In this document: piece after piece, positions 15,637 to 29,902 of the stretch
Position numbering within the stretch: position 1 is the stretch's first letter
How the letters are laid out: each line of letters begins with the position of its first letter
DNA from: Bryobacteraceae bacterium
Lineage (GTDB): Bacteria > Acidobacteriota > Terriglobia > Bryobacterales > Bryobacteraceae
DNA: 64,000 nt
Assembly: GCA_025056455.1 (NCBI GenBank)
Contig: JANWVY010000001.1
Coordinates: 443,757 to 507,756 of the forward strand
Direction: 5' to 3'
Program-made: the position numbers and the translations under genes
Notes under the pieces: model-generated
What the model was told of the DNA's origin: nothing
Database searches by the model: none
Seen by the model: only the letters and a program-made list of their open reading frames with translations

Positions 15637-18600
15637 ATGCTGCTTTCTTGCTCTCGCCTATTGATTTGCCTCTGCTTGCTCGCCGCCCTGGCAGTAGCGC
15701 AATCGAATTTAGCAACCCTCACTGGGATTGTCACCGATCCAGCGTCGGCCGCGGTCGTCCGGGCTCAAGTTTCTGTGACCAGTATGACCACGGGCCTTTC
15801 GGTTCGCGTTTACACCAATGAAGAGGGCGTCTACTTGATTCCAAATCTGCCGCCGGCCGCCTATACGGTCGAAGTTCAGGCGGCAGGTTTCAAGCGAAAG
15901 ACAGTACGGAATCTGGTGCTCGAGGCCTCGATGCGCGCCCGCTTGGACATTCAAGTCGAGCTTGGCGACGTGCAACAGTCCGTGGAAGTGCAAGCCGCGG
16001 TGACGCCGTTGCAGGCTGAAACCGCCGAAATCAGCGAGACTATTACCTCCAAAGACATCATCAATCTTCCCTTAAACGGTCGCAGCCCCTATTCGTTGCT
16101 CATGCTCTCCACAGGGGTATCAGCGGCAGGCGATGATCCCACGAGCCTCGACTATGCAGGCGGCCTCAGCCTGAATGGCAGCCGGCGCGGCAGTAATGCT
16201 TATGTCGTAGATGGCGCCTCTACAACCCACATTGGCGGCATTGCCGAGCGCATCGGCTCGATTGAAGCCATCCAGGAGTTCAAGGTGTTGGCCAACGCCT
16301 ATTCGGCCGAATTCGGGCGCACTTCAGGGGCTGTGATTTCCTTCCAGGTGAAATCCGGAACCAAGGATTTTCACGGCAGCGCCTACGAATTTCACCGCAA
16401 CTCCGTGCTGAATGCCAATAGCTGGGAGAACAACAACCGCAATCTGGGTCGCGGCCAGTTGATTCGCAACGAATTCGGCGGAACAGCCGGTGGCCCGGTG
16501 CCCAAAATGCGCCACCGGATGTTTTATTTCCTCTCCTACGAGGGCATTCGCGATTCGATTCCTGTTGCGCGCCTGCGCACGATCCCAGACCCGGCGATTC
16601 GCGGGGGTGATTTCAGCCGGATCCCAGTTCCCGTCATCGATCCGCTGAATGATACGCCATTCCCGAACAACGTCATTCCTGCCTCCCGCCTCGATCCGGC
16701 TGCACAGCGGCTCATGCGGCTTTTCCCTGCTCCCAACCAAACGGGCATTTTTAATCCACGCTTCGGGCTGGCCACCAACAACTATGTCCGCCAAGCCGGC
16801 CAGCGGGACAACAAAAACTTTGGCACGATGCGCGTGGATTACAGCCCCACCGACCGAGACAAAATCTTTGTCACGTTTTCGCATGTCAACGAAGGGCCTC
16901 GTGACCTGGTGCGCGACTTCGAAAACGTGCTCAACACAACCATCGGCCCCCGCATGCGCAACATCCGGCGGATGACAATCGGCTACACGCGCTTAATCTC
17001 CTCCTCCATGGGAAATGAATTGCTGCTCAGTTCTCAACGGGATCCGCGCAAAATCACTCCCTGGTATCCCGACTTTGACGTAACCGCCGAACTCGGCCTG
17101 CAGAACCGCATCGGGACCGGTCTGCCCACCATCAACATTGCGGGTGGATATGGCAGCTACGGCGAAAGTAATTACCAGAATTGGGTGCATCAGCCTTCAA
17201 GCATCAGCAACATCATGAGCCTGCAACGCGGCCGTCATTCGATGCGCTTTGGCGGTCAGCTTTTCCAGAACCAATTCTGGTATATCGCCGCGAACAACCT
17301 GGCTGGCAACTACAGCTTCAACGGCGAGATCACAGGCCGCGGCACCGTGGGTCGCAACAACCCCATCAACTCCTTCGCCGATCTGCTGATTGGCGCTGTG
17401 AAGACGGCTGGCTACCCGGTGCCGCAGATTCCTGTCAACCGCTACAACTACAACTTGGGCATTTTCTTTCAAGATGACTGGAAGGTCACTCGCAAGCTGA
17501 CACTCAACTTGGGTCTCCGTTGGGAGTTTGAAACCAATCAGGCGGTAAAGAATAACGTCTATTCGCGCGTGGACATGCGGACCGGAGAGCTGCTGGTAGC
17601 TGGCCGGAATGCCACTCGCAATTTGAATCTGAAAAATGACCTTTTGAATTTTGGGCCGCGAATTGGCCTGGCCTACGCCGTGACTGCAAAAACCATCCTC
17701 CGAACCGGCTTTGGCGCGTTCTACTCCAACCTCTGGGTGAACAACGGCGAAATGGTTTCCTACACTGGATGGACCAACGCCCAGACCTTTGTGGACCAGG
17801 GCGTCGGACGCGCCCAGCCGTTTACCTTCACACAGGGCTTCCCAGTGAGCGGCATCACTACCGCTGTGCCGGATCCGCTCGTTTTGTTCGCACAAGCCAC
17901 TGTGACCCGCCCCCTAGCCACGGGAGGCTTCACGTATGACCCCAATGGCAAGCTCCCGGTCAACTACCAGTGGAATGCCAGCCTTCAGCGGGACATTGGC
18001 TGGAACACCGTGGTCGAGCTAGCCTATGTGGCGAGCCGGTCCACCCACCTTTCGCGCAACGTGCCAGCCAACAATCTCACCCTGGACCAGTCGGCGGCTG
18101 TTTCCATCCAGCGCATCCCGACTCAACAACTCCGGCCCTTTAACCGCATTGCCGCTTTCAACGCTATTCTCTATGACGGCCTGAGCCACTACCACTCGCT
18201 GCAAGCAAAAGCGACCCGTCGTTTCAGCCGCGGCCTCAGCCTGGACCTCAACTATACCTTCTCGAAAAACATTGATACTGCCTCGACGCTCGGCGACTCC
18301 TTCCAGATTCCCTGGCAGTTCAATTCCATCGAGCGGGCACTTTCCGGTTTTGACCGTCCGCATTCTCTCACGGCCGGCGTAATTTACGAACTGCCTTTTG
18401 GCCGGGGGCGGCGCTGGCTGCGTTCCAGTAACCTCGCCGAAATGGTGGCTGGCGGCTGGCAAATCAATGCGCTGTTTTCTGCCTCGAGCGGCTTGCCCTT
18501 TACAATCACCCAGGTCAACACCAACCTCATCCTTTCAGCGCAGCGACCGGACGTCATTCACCCTAACAATCTCTCCGGGAAAGTGCAAGGAGTGGTCTTT

Positions 18601-18921
18601 GAGGGCGCAGCGCGCAGATATCTCATTGCGCCGGGCGCGGAGAATTTTCCGTTTCAGCCGTCGTCAAACACTGCTTTCGGAAACCTCGGCCGCAACACCT
18701 CGCGCGAGCCTGGTTTCGTCAACTGGAATCTTTCTTTGTTCAAGGCGATTCCCATCAAAGACCGGGTGCGCTTTGAGCTGCGCCTAGAAGCCTATAATGC
18801 CTTCAACACAGTGAACTGGCGCGAGCCGGCAAGCTTTAACATCGACAACGCGAACTACGGGCTCATTACGGGCACGGCTCCTCCGCGCCAGGCACAGATT
18901 GGTGGCCGCTTGTCCTGGTAG
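15637..18921 (+). CDS. Oar-like TonB-dependent outer-membrane receptor (LacI-linked)
   Basis: 1094 residues. Signal peptide 1-21 (ending AVAQ), carboxypeptidase-regulatory-like domain about 28-85 (GIVTDPASAAVVRAQV, GVYLIPNLPPAAYTVEV), plug domain with AEFGRTSGAVISFQVKSGT near residues 225-245, then a large beta-barrel. The protein ends in GRLSW, so the C-terminal aromatic signal is Trp, unlike the Phe of the other three receptors in this window. The start ATG follows the palindromic leader. It is transcribed away from the two secreted paralogues and is followed 55 bp later by a LacI-type regulator, so uptake of a sugar polymer fragment is the likely role. The substrate is unknown. Confidence 0.9.
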   Translation: MLLSCSRLLICLCLLAALAVAQSNLATLTGIVTDPASAAVVRAQVSVTSMTTGLSVRVYTNEEGVYLIPNLPPAAYTVEVQAAGFKRKTVRNLVLEASMRARLDIQVELGDVQQSVEVQAAVTPLQAETAEISETITSKDIINLPLNGRSPYSLLMLSTGVSAAGDDPTSLDYAGGLSLNGSRRGSNAYVVDGASTTHIGGIAERIGSIEAIQEFKVLANAYSAEFGRTSGAVISFQVKSGTKDFHGSAYEFHRNSVLNANSWENNNRNLGRGQLIRNEFGGTAGGPVPKMRHRMFYFLSYEGIRDSIPVARLRTIPDPAIRGGDFSRIPVPVIDPLNDTPFPNNVIPASRLDPAAQRLMRLFPAPNQTGIFNPRFGLATNNYVRQAGQRDNKNFGTMRVDYSPTDRDKIFVTFSHVNEGPRDLVRDFENVLNTTIGPRMRNIRRMTIGYTRLISSSMGNELLLSSQRDPRKITPWYPDFDVTAELGLQNRIGTGLPTINIAGGYGSYGESNYQNWVHQPSSISNIMSLQRGRHSMRFGGQLFQNQFWYIAANNLAGNYSFNGEITGRGTVGRNNPINSFADLLIGAVKTAGYPVPQIPVNRYNYNLGIFFQDDWKVTRKLTLNLGLRWEFETNQAVKNNVYSRVDMRTGELLVAGRNATRNLNLKNDLLNFGPRIGLAYAVTAKTILRTGFGAFYSNLWVNNGEMVSYTGWTNAQTFVDQGVGRAQPFTFTQGFPVSGITTAVPDPLVLFAQATVTRPLATGGFTYDPNGKLPVNYQWNASLQRDIGWNTVVELAYVASRSTHLSRNVPANNLTLDQSAAVSIQRIPTQQLRPFNRIAAFNAILYDGLSHYHSLQAKATRRFSRGLSLDLNYTFSKNIDTASTLGDSFQIPWQFNSIERALSGFDRPHSLTAGVIYELPFGRGRRWLRSSNLAEMVAGGWQINALFSASSGLPFTITQVNTNLILSAQRPDVIHPNNLSGKVQGVVFEGAARRYLIAPGAENFPFQPSSNTAFGNLGRNTSREPGFVNWNLSLFKAIPIKDRVRFELRLEAYNAFNTVNWREPASFNIDNANYGLITGTAPPRQAQIGGRLSW

Positions 18922-18976
18922 CCCTACAATGATAGAGAGCGCGCCTGGCCTTGGGCGCGCCGGGTTCAGCGTTTCC

Positions 18977-19960
18977 ATGGCAACTATCTACGACGTTGCA
19001 CGCCGGGCGAAGGTGTCGACATACACGGTCTCAGCGGTTCTTAACCAAAGCGCCAAGGTCAGTCCACAGCTGACCGCCCGTGTGCTGAAAGCCGCCCGAG
19101 ATCTGAACTACACGATCAATCACATTGCGAGAAGCCTTCAGACACGCCGCACGATGACCATCGGGATGTTGATTCCCGACATCGCCAATCCCTGGCTCGG
19201 TTTGGTCGTTCGGGGCGTCGAGGATGTTTGTAGCAAACGCGGCTACTCGCTGTTCCTTGGCAACACATATGGCGACATCAGCAAGCAAAGCGACTACTTG
19301 CGCGTGTTTCGGTCTCGTCAGGTGGATGGAGTGATTCTCTTCATGGCCGCCAATTCCGAACGCGAACTGGCTCCGTTGCTGGAAGCAAAAACGCCGCTGG
19401 TTTTTGCCGGTCGGCGACCTCGCCGCCTCGATGCCGACAGTGTCACTGCGGACAACCATTTGGGAACGAAACTTGCGGTGAACCACTTGATTTCGCACGG
19501 CCGCCGGCGGATCGCCATTCTGGTAGGCGAGTCGACTCTCAGCACCTCGCGCGATCGCGTTGCCGGCTGGCGCGCGAGCCATCGCACGGCGGGCCTGTCG
19601 ATTGACAGCTCGCTGGTGAGCTACGGCGAATGGACAACGGCAAGCGCCTGTACGCGCACGCTGGAAATCATGCGCCGGCGTCATCCTCCAGATGCCATCT
19701 TTGCTTCGAGCTTTCCGTTGTTAATCGGCGTATTGGACGCGCTCCGGCAATTAGGGCTGCGGCACCCGCAAGATATCGAGGTGATGAGTTCGGATGATTC
19801 CCGCCTGTTGGATGTCTTTGAGCCGCGGATTTCCGTCGTCGAGCAACCGAGCTACGAGCTGGGGGCCGAGGCGGCGCGTCTTTTGCTGGAACGGATCGAA
19901 CAACCCTCACTGCCCTCGCGGCAGATTGTTCTGAAGCCTGCCTTAAAGCTTCGAGATTAG
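18977..19960 (+). CDS. LacI-family transcriptional regulator
   Basis: 327-residue repressor. The N-terminal HTH is canonical (MATIYDVARRAKVSTYTVSA, then LNQSAKVSPQLTARVLKAA) with the hinge segment NYTINHIARSLQTRRTMTIG, followed by the periplasmic-binding-like effector domain (MLIPDIANPWLGLVVRGVED, RQVDGVILF, ISHGRRRIAIL, DIEVMSSDDS). I start at 18977 because the HTH begins at once; a longer frame from 18899 overlaps the receptor gene end and adds non-homologous residues. It lies 55 bp downstream of the TonB receptor on the same strand and probably regulates it through the CTAATCGATTAG site. The effector is probably a sugar. Confidence 0.92.
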   Translation: MATIYDVARRAKVSTYTVSAVLNQSAKVSPQLTARVLKAARDLNYTINHIARSLQTRRTMTIGMLIPDIANPWLGLVVRGVEDVCSKRGYSLFLGNTYGDISKQSDYLRVFRSRQVDGVILFMAANSERELAPLLEAKTPLVFAGRRPRRLDADSVTADNHLGTKLAVNHLISHGRRRIAILVGESTLSTSRDRVAGWRASHRTAGLSIDSSLVSYGEWTTASACTRTLEIMRRRHPPDAIFASSFPLLIGVLDALRQLGLRHPQDIEVMSSDDSRLLDVFEPRISVVEQPSYELGAEAARLLLERIEQPSLPSRQIVLKPALKLRD

Positions 19961-21373: not shown

Positions 21374-22024
21374 ATGTCCTGGTCGATCTTTCTCGCCGGC
21401 GGCTTACTGGTGTTTTTCCTGCGCGACGCCTTGTTGCTAAGGCTCGTCCGTTGGCCTTGGGTCTGGCTCTACGTGGTGAGCTTCCCAGCTATCTTCGCTG
21501 GGCTGGGCGTTCTGGCTGAAAGGCTTCCACGTGAAGAGGCACTTGCTTTGCTTCGCGATCCGCGATTCTGGGCGCCCGCCGCCGGCCTGCACGTCGGGAA
21601 CTGGATGATCAGCTTTTTCATCGCTCGACGGGCTGCTTTCGCAGATTGGATGGCACTACTGTTACCGGCGCCCATGTACTGGTTCTTGGCGGGCGGCCTG
21701 GTTTGGCTGGCGCTCCAGTTCATTCCTGGCGTTGAGGGATGGATGCTCGGGTTGTTGACGGGTCTCGTTTGGTCGTTGGCTGTTGTGGCCACCAGCCGGT
21801 TATGGAGGCCGGCGTGGAAAAGCTGGGATTTCGCCGCCGCCACCAACCTCACGGCCTTGATTTTGATTCCGTTGCACCAGGAGAGCCGGGAAACAGAGAC
21901 GGCGGGCCTGGTCGTGGGGGACTGGCTCGGGACACTGCTTCCGCTTAGCGTCGTGGTTTGTTTCGTCGCTGTGAGTTTTCTCTATCACCGTTACAAGAGT
22001 TCCCGCCATGCAGTCCATCCATGA
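21374..22024 (+). CDS. Polytopic membrane protein of the CobN/ExbB/DUF2149 operon (HmuT/DUF2162-like position)
   Basis: 216 residues with six or seven hydrophobic helices (for example SIFLAGGLLVFFL, WLYVVSFPAIFAGLGVL, WFLAGGLVWLALQF, WMLGLLTGLVWSLAVV, LLPLSVVVCFVAVSFLY). No enzyme motif is evident. It is the first gene of a five-gene operon and overlaps the ExbB-like gene by 17 bp. In hmu operons of Bacteroidetes and related archaeal clusters a small polytopic protein occupies the same place beside the ExbB-like and DUF2149 proteins. The family link rests on position, size and topology, not on motif identity. It may be a permease or a motor component. Confidence 0.7.
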   Translation: MSWSIFLAGGLLVFFLRDALLLRLVRWPWVWLYVVSFPAIFAGLGVLAERLPREEALALLRDPRFWAPAAGLHVGNWMISFFIARRAAFADWMALLLPAPMYWFLAGGLVWLALQFIPGVEGWMLGLLTGLVWSLAVVATSRLWRPAWKSWDFAAATNLTALILIPLHQESRETETAGLVVGDWLGTLLPLSVVVCFVAVSFLYHRYKSSRHAVHP

Positions 22025-22685
22025 TCTGCTCTACTTGCTTTCAAACGCCTTCCTGGCTCCAACTTTGGTGGGGACGCTCCTGGCCTTCGCTTACACGACA
22101 TTCGTTGTTGGCCAGTTCCTCAGCGACTGGGCGGATCACCGCAGCAACCGGCGCGCGCTAAAGGTTTTTTACTCCGGCCCGCCCACTCAAGAGCGCTTCG
22201 AAGGCTTGTCCTGGCGCGGCGACTATGCGCGGTTCTGCCGCGCCTTGGTGCGGCATCGCAACTTCCCCGCTCTGGTGGAAAAAGAGGTGGCCGATCTGGA
22301 GCACGATATGGCGCAGCGGGTTGAACAGCTGAGCATTCTCGCCAAGGTGGGACCCATGCTCGGTCTCATCGGCACTTTGATTCCGCTCCAACCAGCGCTA
22401 GCAGGGCTTGCGCGCGGCGACATGCAGGCCATGGGCGCCAACCTCCAAATTGGTTTCACAACCACGGTTCTCGGCCTGTTGGTGGGCGGCACGTGTTATG
22501 CCATCAGTTCGATCCTTCGAACCTGGCAACAACAAAGCGTCACGGACTTTCATTTTCTGCTCGGGCTATGGATGCCCGGAGCAACGAGTAGTTTCGATGA
22601 ACCACTACAGCAGACCTCAGTTCCGATTCCGGTTGACGGGTTGGAGGGTGGCAGCGCAGCGATTCGCGCAGAAAAACGCGGCTGA
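22008..22685 (+). CDS. MotA/TolQ/ExbB-family proton channel (HmuU-like)
   Basis: 225-residue inner-membrane protein with three transmembrane segments (about 15-38, 112-130, 145-170) and a cytoplasmic loop between the first two. The signature is in residues 110-165: LAKVGPMLGLIGTLIPLQPA and GANLQIGFTTTVLGLLVGG, with the channel-lining Thr cluster of the ExbB/TolQ family. Such proteins form a pentameric proton channel with a single-helix partner carrying an Asp. Here the partner is probably the next gene, a DUF2149 protein, which overlaps it by 89 bp. The motor could power the TonB receptor or the chelatase-like protein of this operon. Confidence 0.88.
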   Translation: MQSIHDLLYLLSNAFLAPTLVGTLLAFAYTTFVVGQFLSDWADHRSNRRALKVFYSGPPTQERFEGLSWRGDYARFCRALVRHRNFPALVEKEVADLEHDMAQRVEQLSILAKVGPMLGLIGTLIPLQPALAGLARGDMQAMGANLQIGFTTTVLGLLVGGTCYAISSILRTWQQQSVTDFHFLLGLWMPGATSSFDEPLQQTSVPIPVDGLEGGSAAIRAEKRG

Positions 22686-22998
22686 CTCCGATCCGCTGCT
22701 CGGATTGATCAACTTGTTTGACGCCAGCATGGTGTTGGTCGTCGCCATGTTGCTGGCGCTTGTGGGCAAGGGGAGCATGGCGGAGATTGCCGCGCGCCTG
22801 TCCCAGCAGGACGTCACCATTGTGACAAACCCTGGCAGACCGGACATGGAAATGATCATTAAACGCGGCAAAAAAATCGAAAAGCTCAAAGCCACCGGTG
22901 AGCAAGGCCGGGGAGCTGGGCGGAAGCTAGGCACGGCCTACCGCCTGGAATCTGGAGAAGTTGTCTACGTGCCGGAGGCAGGAGGGGCAGAGCCATGA
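22597..22998 (+). CDS. DUF2149 protein (HmuV-like), probable ExbD-like partner
   Basis: 133 residues. The core DPLLGLINLFDASMVLVVAM (residues 32-51) is the DUF2149 signature, which runs into one transmembrane helix. D42 stands at the start of that helix, like the proton-carrying Asp of ExbD/TolR. After the helix is a small soluble domain (DVTIVTNPGRPDMEMIIKRG, ending in GEVVYVPE). I chose the ATG at 22597 (MNHYSRPQFRFR), giving a short basic cytoplasmic tail; it overlaps the ExbB-like gene by 89 bp, and later starts would remove part of that tail. The stop overlaps the ATG of the CobN-like gene by 4 bp. The DUF identification is from the motif; the ExbD analogy is my inference. Confidence 0.8.
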   Translation: MNHYSRPQFRFRLTGWRVAAQRFAQKNAADSDPLLGLINLFDASMVLVVAMLLALVGKGSMAEIAARLSQQDVTIVTNPGRPDMEMIIKRGKKIEKLKATGEQGRGAGRKLGTAYRLESGEVVYVPEAGGAEP

Positions 22999-25900
22999 AG
23001 CACCGCCGGCTGTTGTTTGTCCTTTCCCTGACCGCAGCAACTCTGACTTGCGGCGGGCTCTACTGGTATCTGACGCGACCCAAGCTCCTGTTTCTCGGAT
23101 TTCCCGGTTCTTACATCGCCTTGATGATGAAGGCCTCTCGCACCACGGGAATTCGCTACGAATTCTGGGGCCGCCGGCAAATGGAAGATCCCCAACTCGA
23201 CGAGGCGGCCTTACTGCGCTACAAGGCCATCTTCGTTTCTGGAAGGCGCAGCGAACCGCTTGGCGATGCGCTTAAAAGGGCCCTCGTCGCCGCGCAGAAC
23301 AAAGGGGTGAAGGTGATTGTTCTGCCCCCGGATCAGGCCCCTTCGCTTGGCGTGGGCAATGCGGATTTTCAGGGATTAGAAAAACCGGTGGAACGCTATT
23401 TCCACTATGGGGGCCAAGAAAATATGGCTGCGCTTTTTCAGTACGCAGCCAAAACATATTTGGGCAAAAATGTTACACCGCCCCCTCCCCTTCCCACTCC
23501 CGAAGATGGCTTTTATCACCCTGCCGCGCCGCGAAAATTCGAGCGCACTGCGGAATACCTCCGCTGGTATGAAGAATCAGGGAGGTACAAGCCAAACGGA
23601 CCCCGTGTCCTGATCGATTTCGCCGATGGATGGAAACTGGGCTCCACCGCCGGCACCGACGCGGTTGTACTTGCGTTTGAGAAAAAAGGCTGGAACGTAG
23701 CCGCGATCTTCGGCCGCCAGAAAACAGCCGAATACGCGCTTGAATGGAAACCCGACATTCTCCTCACGCGGACGCATGGGCGCTGGTATCAGGGCGAGAG
23801 GGGGGTGCGGCTGCTGGCCTCGAAAATCGATGTGCCGCTGATGCGCGGCATGCAACTGTTCTTCAGCGGGGAAACGCTTTCCGACTATCGCAAAACCAAC
23901 GCTGGCATTCGTGGTGCGGGTCTGGCGATTGGCGCCATGGTGCCGGAACTAGACGGAGCGATCGAACCCACGTTACTTGAGGGCCTTGACGCCGAATGGT
24001 ATGGCAAACGCTATGAAGCTGTACTTGAGGATCGCATCGAACGGCTGACGGACCGTGCGGCACGCTGGGTCCGGTTGCGAAAGCAACCCAATTCCGCAAA
24101 GAAAATCGCCATCCTCTACGTGGCGGGCGTGGGAAAAGGCAAGGTGGTGGCGGCCGGCCTGAACGTGCCAAACTCGCTCACTCGCTTCCTCGCCGCGCTG
24201 AAAGAAGCCGGTTACTCCATTTCTCGCCTCCCAGAAAGCCCCGAGGCGTTGATTCAAGAGATGACTCTCAAGGGACGCAACATCTCGGAGTCGCAGCAGG
24301 GAGATCTGGAGGAGTTGTCCCGGATGCCGGGTGTGGAATGGCTCCCTGCCGAGGAATACCGCGCCTGGTTTGAACAACTGCCCGAGTCACTCCGCAAACC
24401 AGTAACGGAGGCCTACGGGCCTCCCCCTGGACGGCTGATGGTGGTTAAACGCGAAGGCAAAGCGTTTCTGCTCATCCCCAAGCTCGACTTCGGCAACGTC
24501 GTCGTCTTGCCTCAGCCGGCGCGGGGAGCACGCTACGACTCCAAGCTCCTGCACAACGATAAAGTTCCGCCGCCGCATCAATTCCTCGCCGTTTATTGGT
24601 GGCTCGAGAAGAAGTTCGGAGCTGACGCCATCGTCAACTACGGCACACACGGCACGCATGAGTTCTTGCCCGGCCGTCCCGTGGGCCAGCTGAGCGACGA
24701 CTGGTCGGACGTTACGCTGGGGCGCATGCCGAATATTTACGTCTACGTGATGGACAACGTCGGCGAAGCGCTTATCGCCAAACGCCGGGGTTCCGCAGTT
24801 ACCGTCAGTCACCAGACTCCACCCATTACCGCCAGTGCGCTCAAAGATGCGGACCCAACTCTCGGCGAAATCTATCGTGGCGCCCAGCAATTTTCCACGC
24901 TCGAAGAAGGCGCGCTCAAAGAAAAACTGCGCCAGCAGATCCGAGACCTCGCCGTCGCCAAAAAGCTGGACCGGGATCTCAACAAAGACTGGTCGAAATC
25001 GCTCCCGAGTGATGAAGACATCGAAGCGCTTGAGCAACACATTCACCTGCTTGACGAGGAGCGCATTCCGCTCGGGTTGCACACCCACGGTCAAGCGAAT
25101 ACGCTTGACGAACTCGCTCCGGTCATCGTCGAGGCGCTCGGCGAGGAATTTAAAAAGAGAGCGGGAAGCCGAAATCAAGCTGTATCGCGGGTCCGCGCCA
25201 TCTTGACGGCCCCAGACATCAGCCAGTCCGGTGGTTCAGCGACTTGGGGCCATTCGGCCGTTGCGGGGGCAGCTTCACCCCCAGCGGCTCGACCTCAGAT
25301 CACTCGAGCCGTCGGTCTAGAGCGCCAGCACATCACTGCACCCACGTATCAAAAGACGGCAGAAACGAAGCCCATTCCGGGCTCTGATGATGTGGCGCGC
25401 GTGCGAGTTCTCCAGGCAGGCTTTGCAGCCACGGTGCGAGAAATTCCAGAAACACTTCGAGCTCTTGAGGGCCACTACATTGCACCCGGCGGAGGCGGTG
25501 ACCCGGTCCGCAACCCCATGGCCTTGCCCACCGGTAGAAACCTCTACGGCATCAACCCACAAGAAGTGCCCACCAGAGCAGCTTGGGAACTCGGCAAAAA
25601 GCTCGCGGAGGATTTAATTGCCAGCGAGCGAAAACGCCTGGGCCGTTACCCGCGAAAAATCGGATTCACGCTGTGGAACACCGAGCTCATCCGCCACTAC
25701 GGAACGGATCTGGCTCAGATTCTCTACTTAATGGGGTTGAAGCCGCGTTGGGACCCGCGAGGCATCGTGCAAGGCATCGATGTCATCCCCATGTCAGAGC
25801 TCCGGCGGCCGCGGATTGATGTGGTGATTCAGGCCGCTTCCCTCTTTCGCGATACGTTCCCGGATCGGATGGAATTCCTCGACCAAGCTGTGCGGCTGGC

Positions 25901-27029
25901 TGCCCAATTGCGGGATGGCGAAAACTATCTAGCCGAACACAATTCCACCAACGAACAAGAGTTAAAGCAGGCGGGCCTTTCCGCCAAGGAAGCCCGGCAG
26001 CTTGCAGGGGCGCGTATTTTTTCCAACGCCCCAGGTGGCTACGGCACGGGCGTGATTGACGGGATTGAAAAGTCGGGTAACTTTGAGAACACCAAGTCGA
26101 TCACCGAGGAATATCTCGCGAAAACTGGAGCCGTCTACACGGCAGGAGTAGAGTGGGGCAAGTTCGTTCCCAAGCTCTACGAACAACAGCTGAAGTCTAC
26201 CGACGCTGTCGCTCTTTCCCGCTCCTCAAACGTCGTGAGCGCGCTCACGCTGGATCACTACTTCGAGTATCTCGGCGGGATGACCATGGCCATTCGCGAC
26301 ACGACGGGCCGCTCGCCAGAAACCTATGTTTCCGACGTTCGCGACTCCTCGCGCGCCGCCATGCTGACCGCCCAGCAAGCGCTACGCAACGATTTGCGGA
26401 CTAAGTATTGGAATCCAAAATGGATCACCGCTCTCCAACAGGAAGGCTACTCGGGAGCAGCGGAAATTGCAGAAACCACAAAAAACCTTTTTGGTTGGCA
26501 GGTGACCAAACCAGAGGCGATCACGAGCGATGTGTGGGACACGGTGGAGAAGATCTATGTTGAAGATTCCCTGAACTTAGGGATCCGGCAATGGTTCGAC
26601 GAAAAAAATCCCTACGCCTATCAATCCACCACTGCCATTCTTTTGGAGAGCGCACGAAAAGGCTACTGGAGCCCATCCAAAGAAGTTTTGCAACGGGTTG
26701 CTAATGAGTATGCCCGCTCGGTGGCGCGTCATGGTCACGCAGGCGACCTGCGCACCACGGGTAACCGGGCCTTTCAAGTATTCCTCGAGCAACAATTGAA
26801 TGCGCCTGGCAATCTGACAGGGATTCAGCTGTCGAAAGCCTATCAACAATCTGTTGATAACAGCGCGGGAGTGGCTGGCAAGCTTTTCGTTGCCGGGCAA
26901 CGCCTCGCCCAGGAAGCCTCCCGTCCCCAAACCCAAACCCTCGTGCGTTATTCCACCTTGTCTATCGCTGCAATCACAGCGCTAGCGACCTTGTTCTACT
27001 TCGGCTGGCGCAAAAGGAACGGTCTATGA
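22995..27029 (+). CDS. CobN/HmuS-like chelatase, anchored in the membrane at both ends
   Basis: 1344-residue protein of the CobN/BchH family. Family features are KIAILYVAG, the block YGTHGTHEFLPG (residues 549-560; CobN has GKHGNLEWLPG there), IYVYVMDNVGEALIAKRRG, FSNAPGGYGTGV and DHYFEYLGGM. Unlike cytoplasmic CobN it begins with a transmembrane helix (about 6-26) and ends with another (about 1317-1337, STLSIAAITALATLFYFGW, then RKR), so the body is predicted to be periplasmic. A Pro/Ala/Gly-rich linker lies near residues 745-780. No CobS/CobT ATPase subunits are nearby, arguing against cobalt insertion. The same architecture and neighbours occur in HmuS, reported to remove iron from haem. 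It overlaps both flanking genes by 4 bp. Haem or another metallated tetrapyrrole is the inferred substrate. Confidence 0.85.
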   Translation: MKHRRLLFVLSLTAATLTCGGLYWYLTRPKLLFLGFPGSYIALMMKASRTTGIRYEFWGRRQMEDPQLDEAALLRYKAIFVSGRRSEPLGDALKRALVAAQNKGVKVIVLPPDQAPSLGVGNADFQGLEKPVERYFHYGGQENMAALFQYAAKTYLGKNVTPPPPLPTPEDGFYHPAAPRKFERTAEYLRWYEESGRYKPNGPRVLIDFADGWKLGSTAGTDAVVLAFEKKGWNVAAIFGRQKTAEYALEWKPDILLTRTHGRWYQGERGVRLLASKIDVPLMRGMQLFFSGETLSDYRKTNAGIRGAGLAIGAMVPELDGAIEPTLLEGLDAEWYGKRYEAVLEDRIERLTDRAARWVRLRKQPNSAKKIAILYVAGVGKGKVVAAGLNVPNSLTRFLAALKEAGYSISRLPESPEALIQEMTLKGRNISESQQGDLEELSRMPGVEWLPAEEYRAWFEQLPESLRKPVTEAYGPPPGRLMVVKREGKAFLLIPKLDFGNVVVLPQPARGARYDSKLLHNDKVPPPHQFLAVYWWLEKKFGADAIVNYGTHGTHEFLPGRPVGQLSDDWSDVTLGRMPNIYVYVMDNVGEALIAKRRGSAVTVSHQTPPITASALKDADPTLGEIYRGAQQFSTLEEGALKEKLRQQIRDLAVAKKLDRDLNKDWSKSLPSDEDIEALEQHIHLLDEERIPLGLHTHGQANTLDELAPVIVEALGEEFKKRAGSRNQAVSRVRAILTAPDISQSGGSATWGHSAVAGAASPPAARPQITRAVGLERQHITAPTYQKTAETKPIPGSDDVARVRVLQAGFAATVREIPETLRALEGHYIAPGGGGDPVRNPMALPTGRNLYGINPQEVPTRAAWELGKKLAEDLIASERKRLGRYPRKIGFTLWNTELIRHYGTDLAQILYLMGLKPRWDPRGIVQGIDVIPMSELRRPRIDVVIQAASLFRDTFPDRMEFLDQAVRLAAQLRDGENYLAEHNSTNEQELKQAGLSAKEARQLAGARIFSNAPGGYGTGVIDGIEKSGNFENTKSITEEYLAKTGAVYTAGVEWGKFVPKLYEQQLKSTDAVALSRSSNVVSALTLDHYFEYLGGMTMAIRDTTGRSPETYVSDVRDSSRAAMLTAQQALRNDLRTKYWNPKWITALQQEGYSGAAEIAETTKNLFGWQVTKPEAITSDVWDTVEKIYVEDSLNLGIRQWFDEKNPYAYQSTTAILLESARKGYWSPSKEVLQRVANEYARSVARHGHAGDLRTTGNRAFQVFLEQQLNAPGNLTGIQLSKAYQQSVDNSAGVAGKLFVAGQRLAQEASRPQTQTLVRYSTLSIAAITALATLFYFGWRKRNGL

Positions 27030-29902
27030 AGTTCAAGTTGACGCTTCCGACTTTCGTGATGGCTAGCTCCCTGTGCTTTGCGCAAGGGGAAAAGTCCTCG
27101 ATTTCGGGTGCCGTTTTGGATCCGGCAGACCAGCCTGTTGAAGGAGCGCGTGTTGTTGTTGTTTCGCGAGACAGCGGCGCATCGTGGAGCACGCTTTCAA
27201 GCTCGGCAGGCGTCTTTCGGATCCCATCTCTGCCCACAGGCTGGTATTCGCTGAGCGTGCAGAAGGAAGGATTTCGCGAGTACCGCATCGAACAAGTCCA
27301 GTTACTTTCGGGTCAGGATTTTGCGCGTAACTTGCGGCTCGAACTGAGCGCTGTGCATGGCGAGGTCACCGTGGTTGGCACCGTGCCCGAAATTCAACGT
27401 GACGGCTCGGCAGGAGTCCGGGGCGCAACTTACTCGCCCTCCGAAGTCGAGAACGTTCCGCTGCTGGCCTCCGGCGTCGGTCGCAACTACCGCACACTCG
27501 CCTATCAGACTCCCGGCGTCGGCTTTTCTCGCACCGGTCACGCCCCGTTTACCGTAAACGGGAACCGGCCTTTGGGGGCCATCAACACCATGGTGGATTC
27601 GGCGGAATACAACGATGCCTTTTCAGGCACTGTGCTCGGGCGCGGGATGACCGAACAGCCGGTTTCCATGGAAACCGTGGAAGCCTTCCAAATGCAGACG
27701 TCCAATTTTAAAGCGGAATATGGCCGGGCTTCAGGAGCCGTGGTCAACCTGGTGACGCGCCGCGGAGGCAACCAGTGGCATGGCTCACTCTATCACTTTT
27801 TCCAGAACGAAGCACTCAATGCGCGCAACCCCCTGCTAACGGAGAGAGCCCCGCTGCGACTGAACATGCCCGGCATTACTCTTGGTGGGCCGCTGCGAAA
27901 AGACCATCTCTTCGTTTTTGGGGGCTACGAAATCGCAGTGCGCAACGCCTACCGGGCGTCTTCCACCATCACCACCTTAACCGAGGCGGAGCGCGCCCGC
28001 GCCGTCCCAGCCGTTCGACCGTTCCTCAAATACTATCCCGAACCGAACATTCCCGGAACAAATCTGAACAGCCAGGCCATTCCAAGTCCGACGACGACGC
28101 CCACGGGTCTGGTGCGGCTCGATTACGCGCCCACGATGGCTCACCGCTTGAGCACCCGAGCAAATTTCGTGCGCAATTTAGGCGGATTGCGCGAGCGGCT
28201 TTGGGGCGGAGACGCTCATTCGACGAATCATTCCGGCTCTGCTGTGCTCGCCCTCGAATCAGCGCTTTCTGCCAGAGTTTTTAACGAGCTGCGGGGAACT
28301 TACACGCATTTCCAGTCCAGCGTGGAACCGCACCATCCTTCTCTGGGAGATCCTGCCATCAACGGTCAAGTGGGCCTGTTGGTGGTCACTGGCTTACCGA
28401 TTCTCGGGCAGTTTCGCTCGCGGAATGCCTCTACATTCCACAACTATACAGTTTCCAATGATCTGAGCTTTTTCCGGGGCGCACATATTTTCAAAGCGGG
28501 CGGCATCCACCGTCTGACAAAGGCCAACAATGAGTCCGATCGCAATTTCAATGGCACGCTGGTGTTTCCCTCCGTCGCGGCCTTTCTAGCCGGGCAACCG
28601 CTTTCCTACTCGCGCGCCATTGGAGCATCACGCATCGACATGCGAAATCGAGAAACGGCGTTTTACTTTCAAGATGACTGGCGGATCCGCCCGTGGCTAA
28701 CGCTGAATCTCGGCCTGCGTTACGAATACTACGGGGTGCCCAGCGAAAAATACCAGCGCCTGGGAATCCTCTACCAGCAAGATCGCAACAACTTCGCTCC
28801 GCGGCTTGGTTTTGCCTGGGACCTCGGCGGACGCAGCACAACGATTGTCCGGGGTGGTTATGGCTGGTTCTACTCGCCGCTACAAATGGATTTCGTCGGC
28901 CAGGCTCGCTTTGCTCCCCCCTTGGTGACGACCTTCTCCCGATTCCGGCCTGCGTTCCCAGATCTGCTTGCGGGTGCGGCGATTGGATCCGACGCCTATG
29001 TTTTGGACCGTTCTATCCGCAACCCCTACGTACAGAACTGGAACCTCACAATCGATCGCCAGCTGTGGAGCGCAGCGACCGTGGTGAGTCTCGCTTACGT
29101 CGGAAATCGAGGAATCCGACTCCCCATGACATCCCGGCCCAACGGTGGCGAGAATCTGAATCCCGCGCAGCGTCCCGACCCGGCGCGTGGGGTGATCAGC
29201 TATCTGACGGGGGCTGCATCCAGCACCTATCACAGCACGCAACTCTCCCTGCGCACCGTCCTTGTGAACCGGCTGAGTTTGCGGGCTGCCTACACGCTGT
29301 CACGCTCGATTGACAACGCATCGGATGCCGCTTTCAACCCCTTGGACGAGCGGAACTGGTCGCTCGACCGTGGCCTGTCGGATTTTCACCAGAAACACCT
29401 CGTCACTTTTTATGGGATTTATGAGGTGCCGTTTTGGGAGAACCGGCGCTGGCTTGGCGGCTGGCAGCTGGTGGGGCTTTTGCTTGGCCGAAGCGGCACA
29501 CCCTTCACCTTGCTTGCGAACACCAACACCCCGAACGGAACCTTGAACAACCGGATCCTGCACATCCCAGGCACGCTCGATCGGAAGCCCATCGGTTCGC
29601 GCTGGATCGCGCTCGAGCCCGGAGTGACTGTAGCTCAGTTGCAACCGGCGCCGGGCCAGCTTGGCACACTCGGGCGAAACACTGAAATTGGGCCTAATTT
29701 CATCGATCTCAACGTGGCTTTGCACAAGCATTTCCGCCTGGGCGAACGTCTCCAAGCGCAGTTTCGTGTGGAGATTTTTAACACACTCAACCGTCCCAAC
29801 TACGAAACACCCATTAATAACCTCGGGAACGCGGCCTTTGGACGCATCCTTACGGCGGCCGATCCCAGGCAATTCCAACTCCTGCTCAAATTCAGTTTTT
29901 GA
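27026..29902 (+). CDS. Oar-like TonB-dependent receptor of the CobN/HmuS-like operon
   Basis: 958 residues, the smallest of the four receptors here. Signal peptide about 1-20 (VMASSLCFAQ), regulatory-like domain about 28-88 (ISGAVLDPADQPVEGARV, FRIPSLPTGWYSLSV), plug with AEYGRASGAVVNLVTRRGG near residue 235, and a barrel ending in LLLKFSF. It overlaps the CobN-like gene by 4 bp (ATGA), so uptake and processing are strictly co-expressed. In Bacteroidetes the corresponding HmuR has no such Oar-like architecture. No haemophore-like HmuY gene is present. It is predicted to import haem, a cobamide or another tetrapyrrole; His ligands in the plug or loops could not be assigned by eye. Confidence 0.88.
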   Translation: MKFKLTLPTFVMASSLCFAQGEKSSISGAVLDPADQPVEGARVVVVSRDSGASWSTLSSSAGVFRIPSLPTGWYSLSVQKEGFREYRIEQVQLLSGQDFARNLRLELSAVHGEVTVVGTVPEIQRDGSAGVRGATYSPSEVENVPLLASGVGRNYRTLAYQTPGVGFSRTGHAPFTVNGNRPLGAINTMVDSAEYNDAFSGTVLGRGMTEQPVSMETVEAFQMQTSNFKAEYGRASGAVVNLVTRRGGNQWHGSLYHFFQNEALNARNPLLTERAPLRLNMPGITLGGPLRKDHLFVFGGYEIAVRNAYRASSTITTLTEAERARAVPAVRPFLKYYPEPNIPGTNLNSQAIPSPTTTPTGLVRLDYAPTMAHRLSTRANFVRNLGGLRERLWGGDAHSTNHSGSAVLALESALSARVFNELRGTYTHFQSSVEPHHPSLGDPAINGQVGLLVVTGLPILGQFRSRNASTFHNYTVSNDLSFFRGAHIFKAGGIHRLTKANNESDRNFNGTLVFPSVAAFLAGQPLSYSRAIGASRIDMRNRETAFYFQDDWRIRPWLTLNLGLRYEYYGVPSEKYQRLGILYQQDRNNFAPRLGFAWDLGGRSTTIVRGGYGWFYSPLQMDFVGQARFAPPLVTTFSRFRPAFPDLLAGAAIGSDAYVLDRSIRNPYVQNWNLTIDRQLWSAATVVSLAYVGNRGIRLPMTSRPNGGENLNPAQRPDPARGVISYLTGAASSTYHSTQLSLRTVLVNRLSLRAAYTLSRSIDNASDAAFNPLDERNWSLDRGLSDFHQKHLVTFYGIYEVPFWENRRWLGGWQLVGLLLGRSGTPFTLLANTNTPNGTLNNRILHIPGTLDRKPIGSRWIALEPGVTVAQLQPAPGQLGTLGRNTEIGPNFIDLNVALHKHFRLGERLQAQFRVEIFNTLNRPNYETPINNLGNAAFGRILTAADPRQFQLLLKFSF

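Follow-up and report, generated by a model that had tools for sequence, protein, structure and literature searches.

A divergent hmu-like gene set with an Oar-like receptor in the Bryobacteraceae and its putative role in haem-iron acquisition

The chelatase HmuS of the Bacteroidota converts haem to protoporphyrin IX and Fe(II) in an NADH-dependent reaction, as described for the solved enzyme (PDB 9d26; PMC12583661). Loss of hmuS in Porphyromonas gingivalis is reported to lower protoporphyrin IX (PMC13227078), and hmu genes in Bacteroidetes are reported to be induced by iron shortage (PMC10434189). One survey (PMC10100974) reports cobalamin riboswitches at hmu-like operons, regards the complete operon as restricted to Bacteroidetes and proposes HmuT and HmuV as diagnostic of haem transport. 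A related set of five genes, here called T, U, V, S and R, was identified in a 64,000-nucleotide stretch of a Bryobacteraceae bacterium genome (GCA_025056455.1, contig JANWVY010000001.1, positions 443,757 to 507,756), referred to as the window. On analogy with hmu, the operon is taken with moderate confidence to encode a haem-iron system of the hmu kind that reaches from the outer membrane to the periplasm and in which S would dechelate haem in the periplasm. The features of the operon, in window coordinates, were as follows.

21374-22024, plus strand: T, polytopic membrane protein of 216 aa, a highly divergent relative of DUF2162 that takes the place of HmuT
22008-22685, plus strand: U, ExbB/TolQ/MotA-like proton channel protein of 225 aa (PF01618)
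22597-22998, plus strand: V, DUF2149 protein of 133 aa (PF09919)
22995-27029, plus strand: S, HmuS-like class I chelatase of 1344 aa with a predicted anchor helix near each end
23775-23783, plus strand: codons of the neck motif H261-G262-R263 of S (His254-Gly-Arg of HmuS), invariant in 25 of 25 members of the branch
24648-24650, plus strand: codon of H552 of S (His538 of HmuS), His in all 104 chelatases aligned
26250-26267, plus strand: codons of L-D-H-x-x-E, residues 1086-1091 of S (H1088 is His1209 of HmuS)
27026-29902, plus strand: R, Oar-like TonB-dependent receptor of 958 aa with a CarboxypepD_reg domain

All five genes were open at these coordinates (21374-29902) and overlapped by 17, 89, 4 and 4 bp, provided that V starts at 22597, in agreement with a preliminary description of the locus made from the sequence alone. 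In common with the Bacteroidota hmuYRSTUV operon, the set comprises a CobN-like S with a helix predicted near either end, an ExbB-like U, the DUF2149 protein V, a TonB receptor and a small polytopic protein, and S carries the bis-His centre and the neck HGR motif. Unlike the six-gene Bacteroidota operon, the present one has five genes in the order T-U-V-S-R, an Oar-like receptor and no adjacent HmuY. S also differs from HmuS in lacking Met79 and the methionine-rich insertion and in having changed pocket residues, and T is only weakly like HmuT. The hmu-type logic of the preliminary description was upheld by profile and sequence searches as far as S (CobN family, closest to HmuS), U (ExbB-like) and V (DUF2149) are concerned; for T the likeness to HmuT was weak, and DUF2162 was nearer.

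S matched the CobN-Mg_chel profile at 1007 bits and fell under the cut-offs of all nine NCBIfam CobN/ChlH models matched. Scores against PDB sequences were 604 bits for HmuS (9d26), 434 for ChlH and 393 for CobN. Hydropathy predicted helices at residues 6-24 and 1316-1334 with modest scores, and a third stretch, 371-389, was flagged inside the body of the protein. A scan of genome contigs gave at least 79 loci, and an alignment and a FastTree tree were made of 104 class I chelatases from the fetched loci, with duplicate loci, S pieces shorter than 880 aa and 17 of 23 cyanobacterial ChlH sequences omitted. The S branch (n = 25) and the HmuS-type branch (n = 40) each had a support of 1.0 and formed, with a three-member group, a clade supported at 0.999, apart from the CobN-like (30) and ChlH (6) proteins. 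In this tree the S branch is sister to the HmuS branch and not nested inside it. The three-member group (L050, L090 and L092) carries His-His at the centre where S has Asp-His, and pairs with the S branch at a support of 0.856.

The possibility that S is a cytoplasmic CobN, named in the preliminary description as what would speak against its reading, was ruled out by the PDB-sequence scores, the tree and the fact that the genome encodes CobN separately, along with an AAA+/VWA partner; S still matched HmuS best. This other CobN (L021) shares the class I chelatase fold family with S but has no hydropathy-predicted anchors and has a CobN-type centre, with Asp at the His1209 column. It adjoins B12-type transport genes, lying after ABC, TonB receptor, binding-protein and FecCD genes and before the AAA+/VWA gene. 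The S operon holds no AAA+ gene and the centre of S has His, not Asp, so that CobN-type features are lacking.

The features described for the HmuS family are Met79, His254-Gly-Arg, His538, His1209 and a methionine-rich insertion, and the exchange H538A abolished turnover (PMC12583661). In the S branch, H261, G262, R263, H520, H552, E591, D1087, H1088 and E1091 were invariant in 25 of 25 members, the last six corresponding to His506, His538, Glu577, Asp1208, His1209 and Glu1212 of HmuS. The His538 and Glu577 columns were kept in all 104 sequences, and His506 and Asp1208 are common to CobN-like proteins too; only the neck HGR, H1088 and E1091 part the haem branches from the CobN-like proteins. 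At the His1209 column, Asp or Glu was found in 30 of 30 CobN-like proteins, and His in the S branch, the HmuS branch, the third group and 6 of 6 ChlH. The bis-His motifs of S are NYGTHG and LTLDHYFEYLGG, compared to HFG(T/A)HG and LSLDHxxEFMGG in HmuS; both histidines were present in 25 of 25 members of the S branch, with varied neighbours.

Conservation was studied in 100 sampled genomes of the order, membership of the S branch being read from the search table as at least 49% identity to S. An S of this branch was present in 21 of the 100 genomes. DUF2149 was above the cut-off in all 21 of these and in 6 of the 79 others (kinship ignored), and it was rare in the wider phylum (6 of 297 genomes). 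The neighbourhood survey called for in the preliminary description found the whole five-gene set in 14 of the 21 S-bearing genomes; the lack of conservation in relatives that would have spoken against that reading was thus not observed. The order T-U-V-S-R, also correctly described before, was read in the window and in L032-L036, L038, L039, L041 and L043, and the order TU-S-R-V in L046-L049. For stretches not fully read, the coordinates place DUF2149 directly before one S copy in G298, G303 and G309, and S and DUF2149 are on different contigs in G329. Eleven named loci among the matches listed (L080-L089 and L091) were titled Bryobacterales, Bryobacteraceae, Acidobacteria or Terriglobia, all of them metagenome-assembled. 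A search of a plasmid collection yielded comparators only, and no paper on such a set in Acidobacteriota was found in the open-licence part of PubMed Central.

Besides these loci, S copies of a sister family standing alone were observed in L037, L040, L042, L044, L045, L068 and L069, several of them near apparent MiaB and CbiO-like genes, as judged by eye. In L073, L075 and L079 the U-V pair was located elsewhere.

R matched the profiles OMP_b-brl_4 (1.5e-143) and CarboxypepD_reg (3.8e-18), which confirmed the Oar-like receptor with a carboxypeptidase-regulatory-like domain of the preliminary description. Among the candidates scored (72 in the larger genomes), the closest homologue of R was the one adjoining S in each of the 10 S-bearing genomes searched. 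Its identity was 59-79% in the nine genomes besides the window's own, and the next matches reached at most 43%; in two genomes without S the best R homologue had 31-32%. Judged by these homologies, R is dedicated to S.

The haem-iron reading was built on computed gene content, conservation, phylogenetic place, kept residues, the lack of a cobalamin riboswitch and the presence of FeoB and ferrochelatase, from which substrate, topology, reaction direction, motor function and iron route are inferred. R would import haem or a close iron porphyrin into the periplasm, where the body of S, anchored in the inner membrane, is expected to lie. S may hold the porphyrin at the neck site H261, and iron would be removed between H552 and H1088 with the ring left intact. 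The Fe(II) could enter through FeoB, which was found in the window's own genome and in 87 of 100 genomes of the order sample. U and V, with T, would make up a proton-driven motor devoted to the system. Haem oxygenase PF01126, the only haem-degrading family searched for, was not found in the window's own genome.

A number of observations weigh against this reading. Met79-Gly80 of HmuS is R84-R85 in S; within the branch, the Met79 position is Arg in 21 of 25 and Leu in 4 of 25, and the Gly80 position is Arg in 25 of 25. Further losses are Gln299 (I312) and Phe502 (S516). The methionine-rich insertion (domain IV) is absent, with no Met in the 127 residues of that region of S. Of the residues predicted to hold the porphyrin propionates in HmuS, namely S1014, S1067, Q1198 and W1202 (PMC12583661), Ser1014 is replaced by N895, Ser1067 by A948, Gln1198 by S1077 and Trp1202 by V1081; A948 and S1077 are invariant in the S branch, and the N895 and V1081 positions vary. 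No promoter or iron-response site was seen upstream of the operon. Ferrochelatase was present in the window's own genome and in 99 of 100 genomes of the order sample, and therefore haem import as such is not required. PF01126 was found in one of 12 genomes searched, the S-bearing G376. Finally, in 3 of the 21 S-bearing genomes (G300, G305 and G313), S had no partners in the stretch read and DUF2149 was elsewhere in the genome.

According to the alignment, the Met-His ligation of the solved HmuS structure cannot form in S. The weight of Met79 as a family feature was followed through the HmuS-type branch, where this column has Met in 20 of 40 members, Arg in 16 and another residue or a gap in 4. 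At least seven Met in the methionine-rich region were found in 16 of 20 members with Met79 and in 5 of 20 without it (p = 0.001, kinship ignored), so that these two features seem to mark a single HmuS sub-branch only. The lack of generality of Met79 may stem from the published conserved set, which drew only on sequences sharing at least 50% identity with the B. thetaiotaomicron protein (PMC12583661). An operon of Aureibacter (L006) that includes HmuY has Arg at the Met79 column, and Arg alone therefore does not count against haem. S would be a variant that works like HmuS. It falls outside the HmuS family in its narrow definition, since both Met79 and the methionine-rich insertion were looked for and were absent.

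The same replacements could reflect demetallation of another metallotetrapyrrole (another haem type, or a magnesium or other metalloporphyrin) by the same chemistry in a remodelled pocket. In addition to the four propionate-site residues (N895, A948, S1077 and V1081) and the changes of Met79, Gly80, Gln299 and Phe502, the receptor from an unrelated subfamily would fit such a substrate. However, HmuS-branch proteins themselves vary at S1014 and Q1198, and the metal centre and the neck motif are kept in S, which makes this alternative rather unlikely.

Uptake or handling of corrinoids (B12), with R importing cobamides and S holding or remodelling them, was considered with the help of a search for riboswitches with Rfam at gathering thresholds. 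In its favour, related cassettes look linked to corrinoids, among them locus L004:2302-10714 of a Trichlorobacter lovleyi plasmid, where two cobalamin riboswitches are followed by a TonB receptor, DUF2162, ExbB-like, DUF2149 and CobN-like genes, with a BzaF gene near. As in the window, a DUF2162-type T is followed by U, V and S, but the S of L004 is a CobN-like protein that has Asp at the His1209 column and lacks HGR, and the receptor, a different one, comes first. Riboswitches were also found just before receptor and S in L101, L103 and L105. Altogether, 5 of the 24 CobN-like loci tested carried a riboswitch, located at or just before the receptor gene in L004, L101, L103 and L105, and on the other strand and far off in L060. 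In the S branch none of 17 loci had a riboswitch; some of them hold little upstream DNA (415 bases in L080). Since 19 of 24 CobN-like loci lack one as well, absence of the riboswitch alone is weak evidence against corrinoids.

The neck histidine tracked regulation. Among HmuS-type loci, a riboswitch was found in none of nine with the neck His (L003, L006, L106, L111, L113, L114, L119, L125 and L129) and in six of ten without it (L112, L116, L122, L128, L134 and L140); in L096, L120, L121 and L123, where the neck His is also lost, none was found. In L112, L122, L128 and L140 a frame of 718-746 aa starts 30-70 bases after the riboswitch; in L116 and L134 the distance is larger. When pooled, 0 of 26 loci with the neck His and 6 of 10 without it had a riboswitch (p = 1e-4, kinship ignored), but nine of the ten loci without neck His belong to one clade, so that few independent events are represented. 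All six riboswitch-bearing HmuS-type loci keep D-H-x-x-E, a further point in favour of corrinoids, and D-H-x-x-E was therefore rejected as a stand-alone mark of haem. The results suggest that the neck histidine is a testable sequence mark parting haem-type from riboswitch-linked HmuS relatives. Riboswitch-linked operons thus also contain the U-V pair, joined in L004 by a T of DUF2162 type, and the presence of DUF2149 there argues against HmuT and HmuV as diagnostic of haem transport.

For the S branch itself, corrinoid handling is doubtful: the neck His lost in the six riboswitch-linked HmuS-type loci is kept in 25 of 25 members, the H1088 column has Asp or Glu throughout the CobN-like proteins, and the genome has a separate B12-type operon. 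A role of S as a membrane-anchored tetrapyrrole carrier, binding and handing on without dechelatase activity, would fit a neck site kept while pocket residues drift but is improbable in view of a bis-His centre and carboxylate partners invariant in 25 of 25.

T had no Pfam or NCBIfam match, and its predicted model (pLDDT 75) had no useful match in the PDB, none reaching E <= 0.001. The T of L038 matched DUF2162 at 2.7e-5, under the Pfam cut-off, and a profile of the branch T matched the DUF2162-type T of L004 at 3.3e-5. Comparison with Bacteroidota HmuT by hhalign gave a weak match (59%, E 9e-5) over 103 columns of the C-terminal half only. On these profile comparisons, T resembles DUF2162 weakly and Bacteroidota HmuT more weakly. 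U matched MotA_ExbB (PF01618) at 3.9e-12 over residues 85-180 and has three predicted helices. V matched DUF2149 (PF09919) at 1.1e-28 across the whole domain and has one predicted helix carrying D42, invariant in 25 of 25 aligned sequences. The notion of V as a proven ExbD was unsupported by hhalign (2%, 14 columns round the helix Asp) or by the predicted model (pTM 0.29), which had no match in the PDB at E <= 0.001.

In L046-L049 and L080, T and U share a single open frame (395-414 aa) that lacks the last T helix and has the U part starting at the usual Met. L081 has a similar layout (353 aa), but the T profile does not recognise the first part. The fusion probably arose in two separate events, since the nearest relatives of L080 (L034 and L035) have separate T and U frames with 3 bp between them. 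The single frames tie T to the channel protein, though U may still be translated from the inner Met.

CobN and ChlH use an AAA+ ATPase. It is conceivable, though unlikely, that the T-U-V motor drives the dechelatase S, either instead of the receptor or in addition to it; an ExbB-like motor powered by protons would then replace the AAA+ ATPase because a periplasmic enzyme has no ATP. Compatible with this are the 4-bp V-S overlap in 13 of 13 T-U-V-S or U-V-S loci measured, the T-U single frame in five loci, and DUF2149 in all 21 S genomes, including three without a receptor gene found beside S. The window's own genome also has three ordinary ExbD and four TonB_C matches that could serve its many receptors. 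On the other hand, recombinant HmuS is described as turning haem over without T-U-V partners (PMC12583661), and U-V was not seen in the stretch read at the receptor-linked CobN-like loci L051, L052, L054, L056-L058 and L062.

The operon is flanked on the 5' side by another Oar-like receptor, a LacI-type regulator and truB, and on the 3' side by bL25, pth and S6; HmuY is therefore not adjacent. The absence of HmuY stated in the preliminary description holds for these flanks but was not established genome-wide, as a search for the HmuY family in 12 genomes gave no match and the control genomes were likewise unmatched. The second Oar-like receptor gene (15637-18921), slightly upstream of the operon, overlaps the LacI-type regulator gene (18899-19960).

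Systems of the hmu kind are how gut bacteria take iron from haem without oxygen. A divergent hmu-like form with another type of receptor is found repeatedly in Bryobacterales (Acidobacteriota). HmuS-type genes with neck motif and bis-His centre were, among the matches listed, also present in records titled Lentisphaeria, Victivallales, Victivallis vadensis, Gammaproteobacteria, Vicinamibacteraceae, Cupriavidus, Singulisphaera and Bythopirellula, several of which are metagenome bins. Oxygen-free salvage of iron from haem may therefore reach well beyond the gut.

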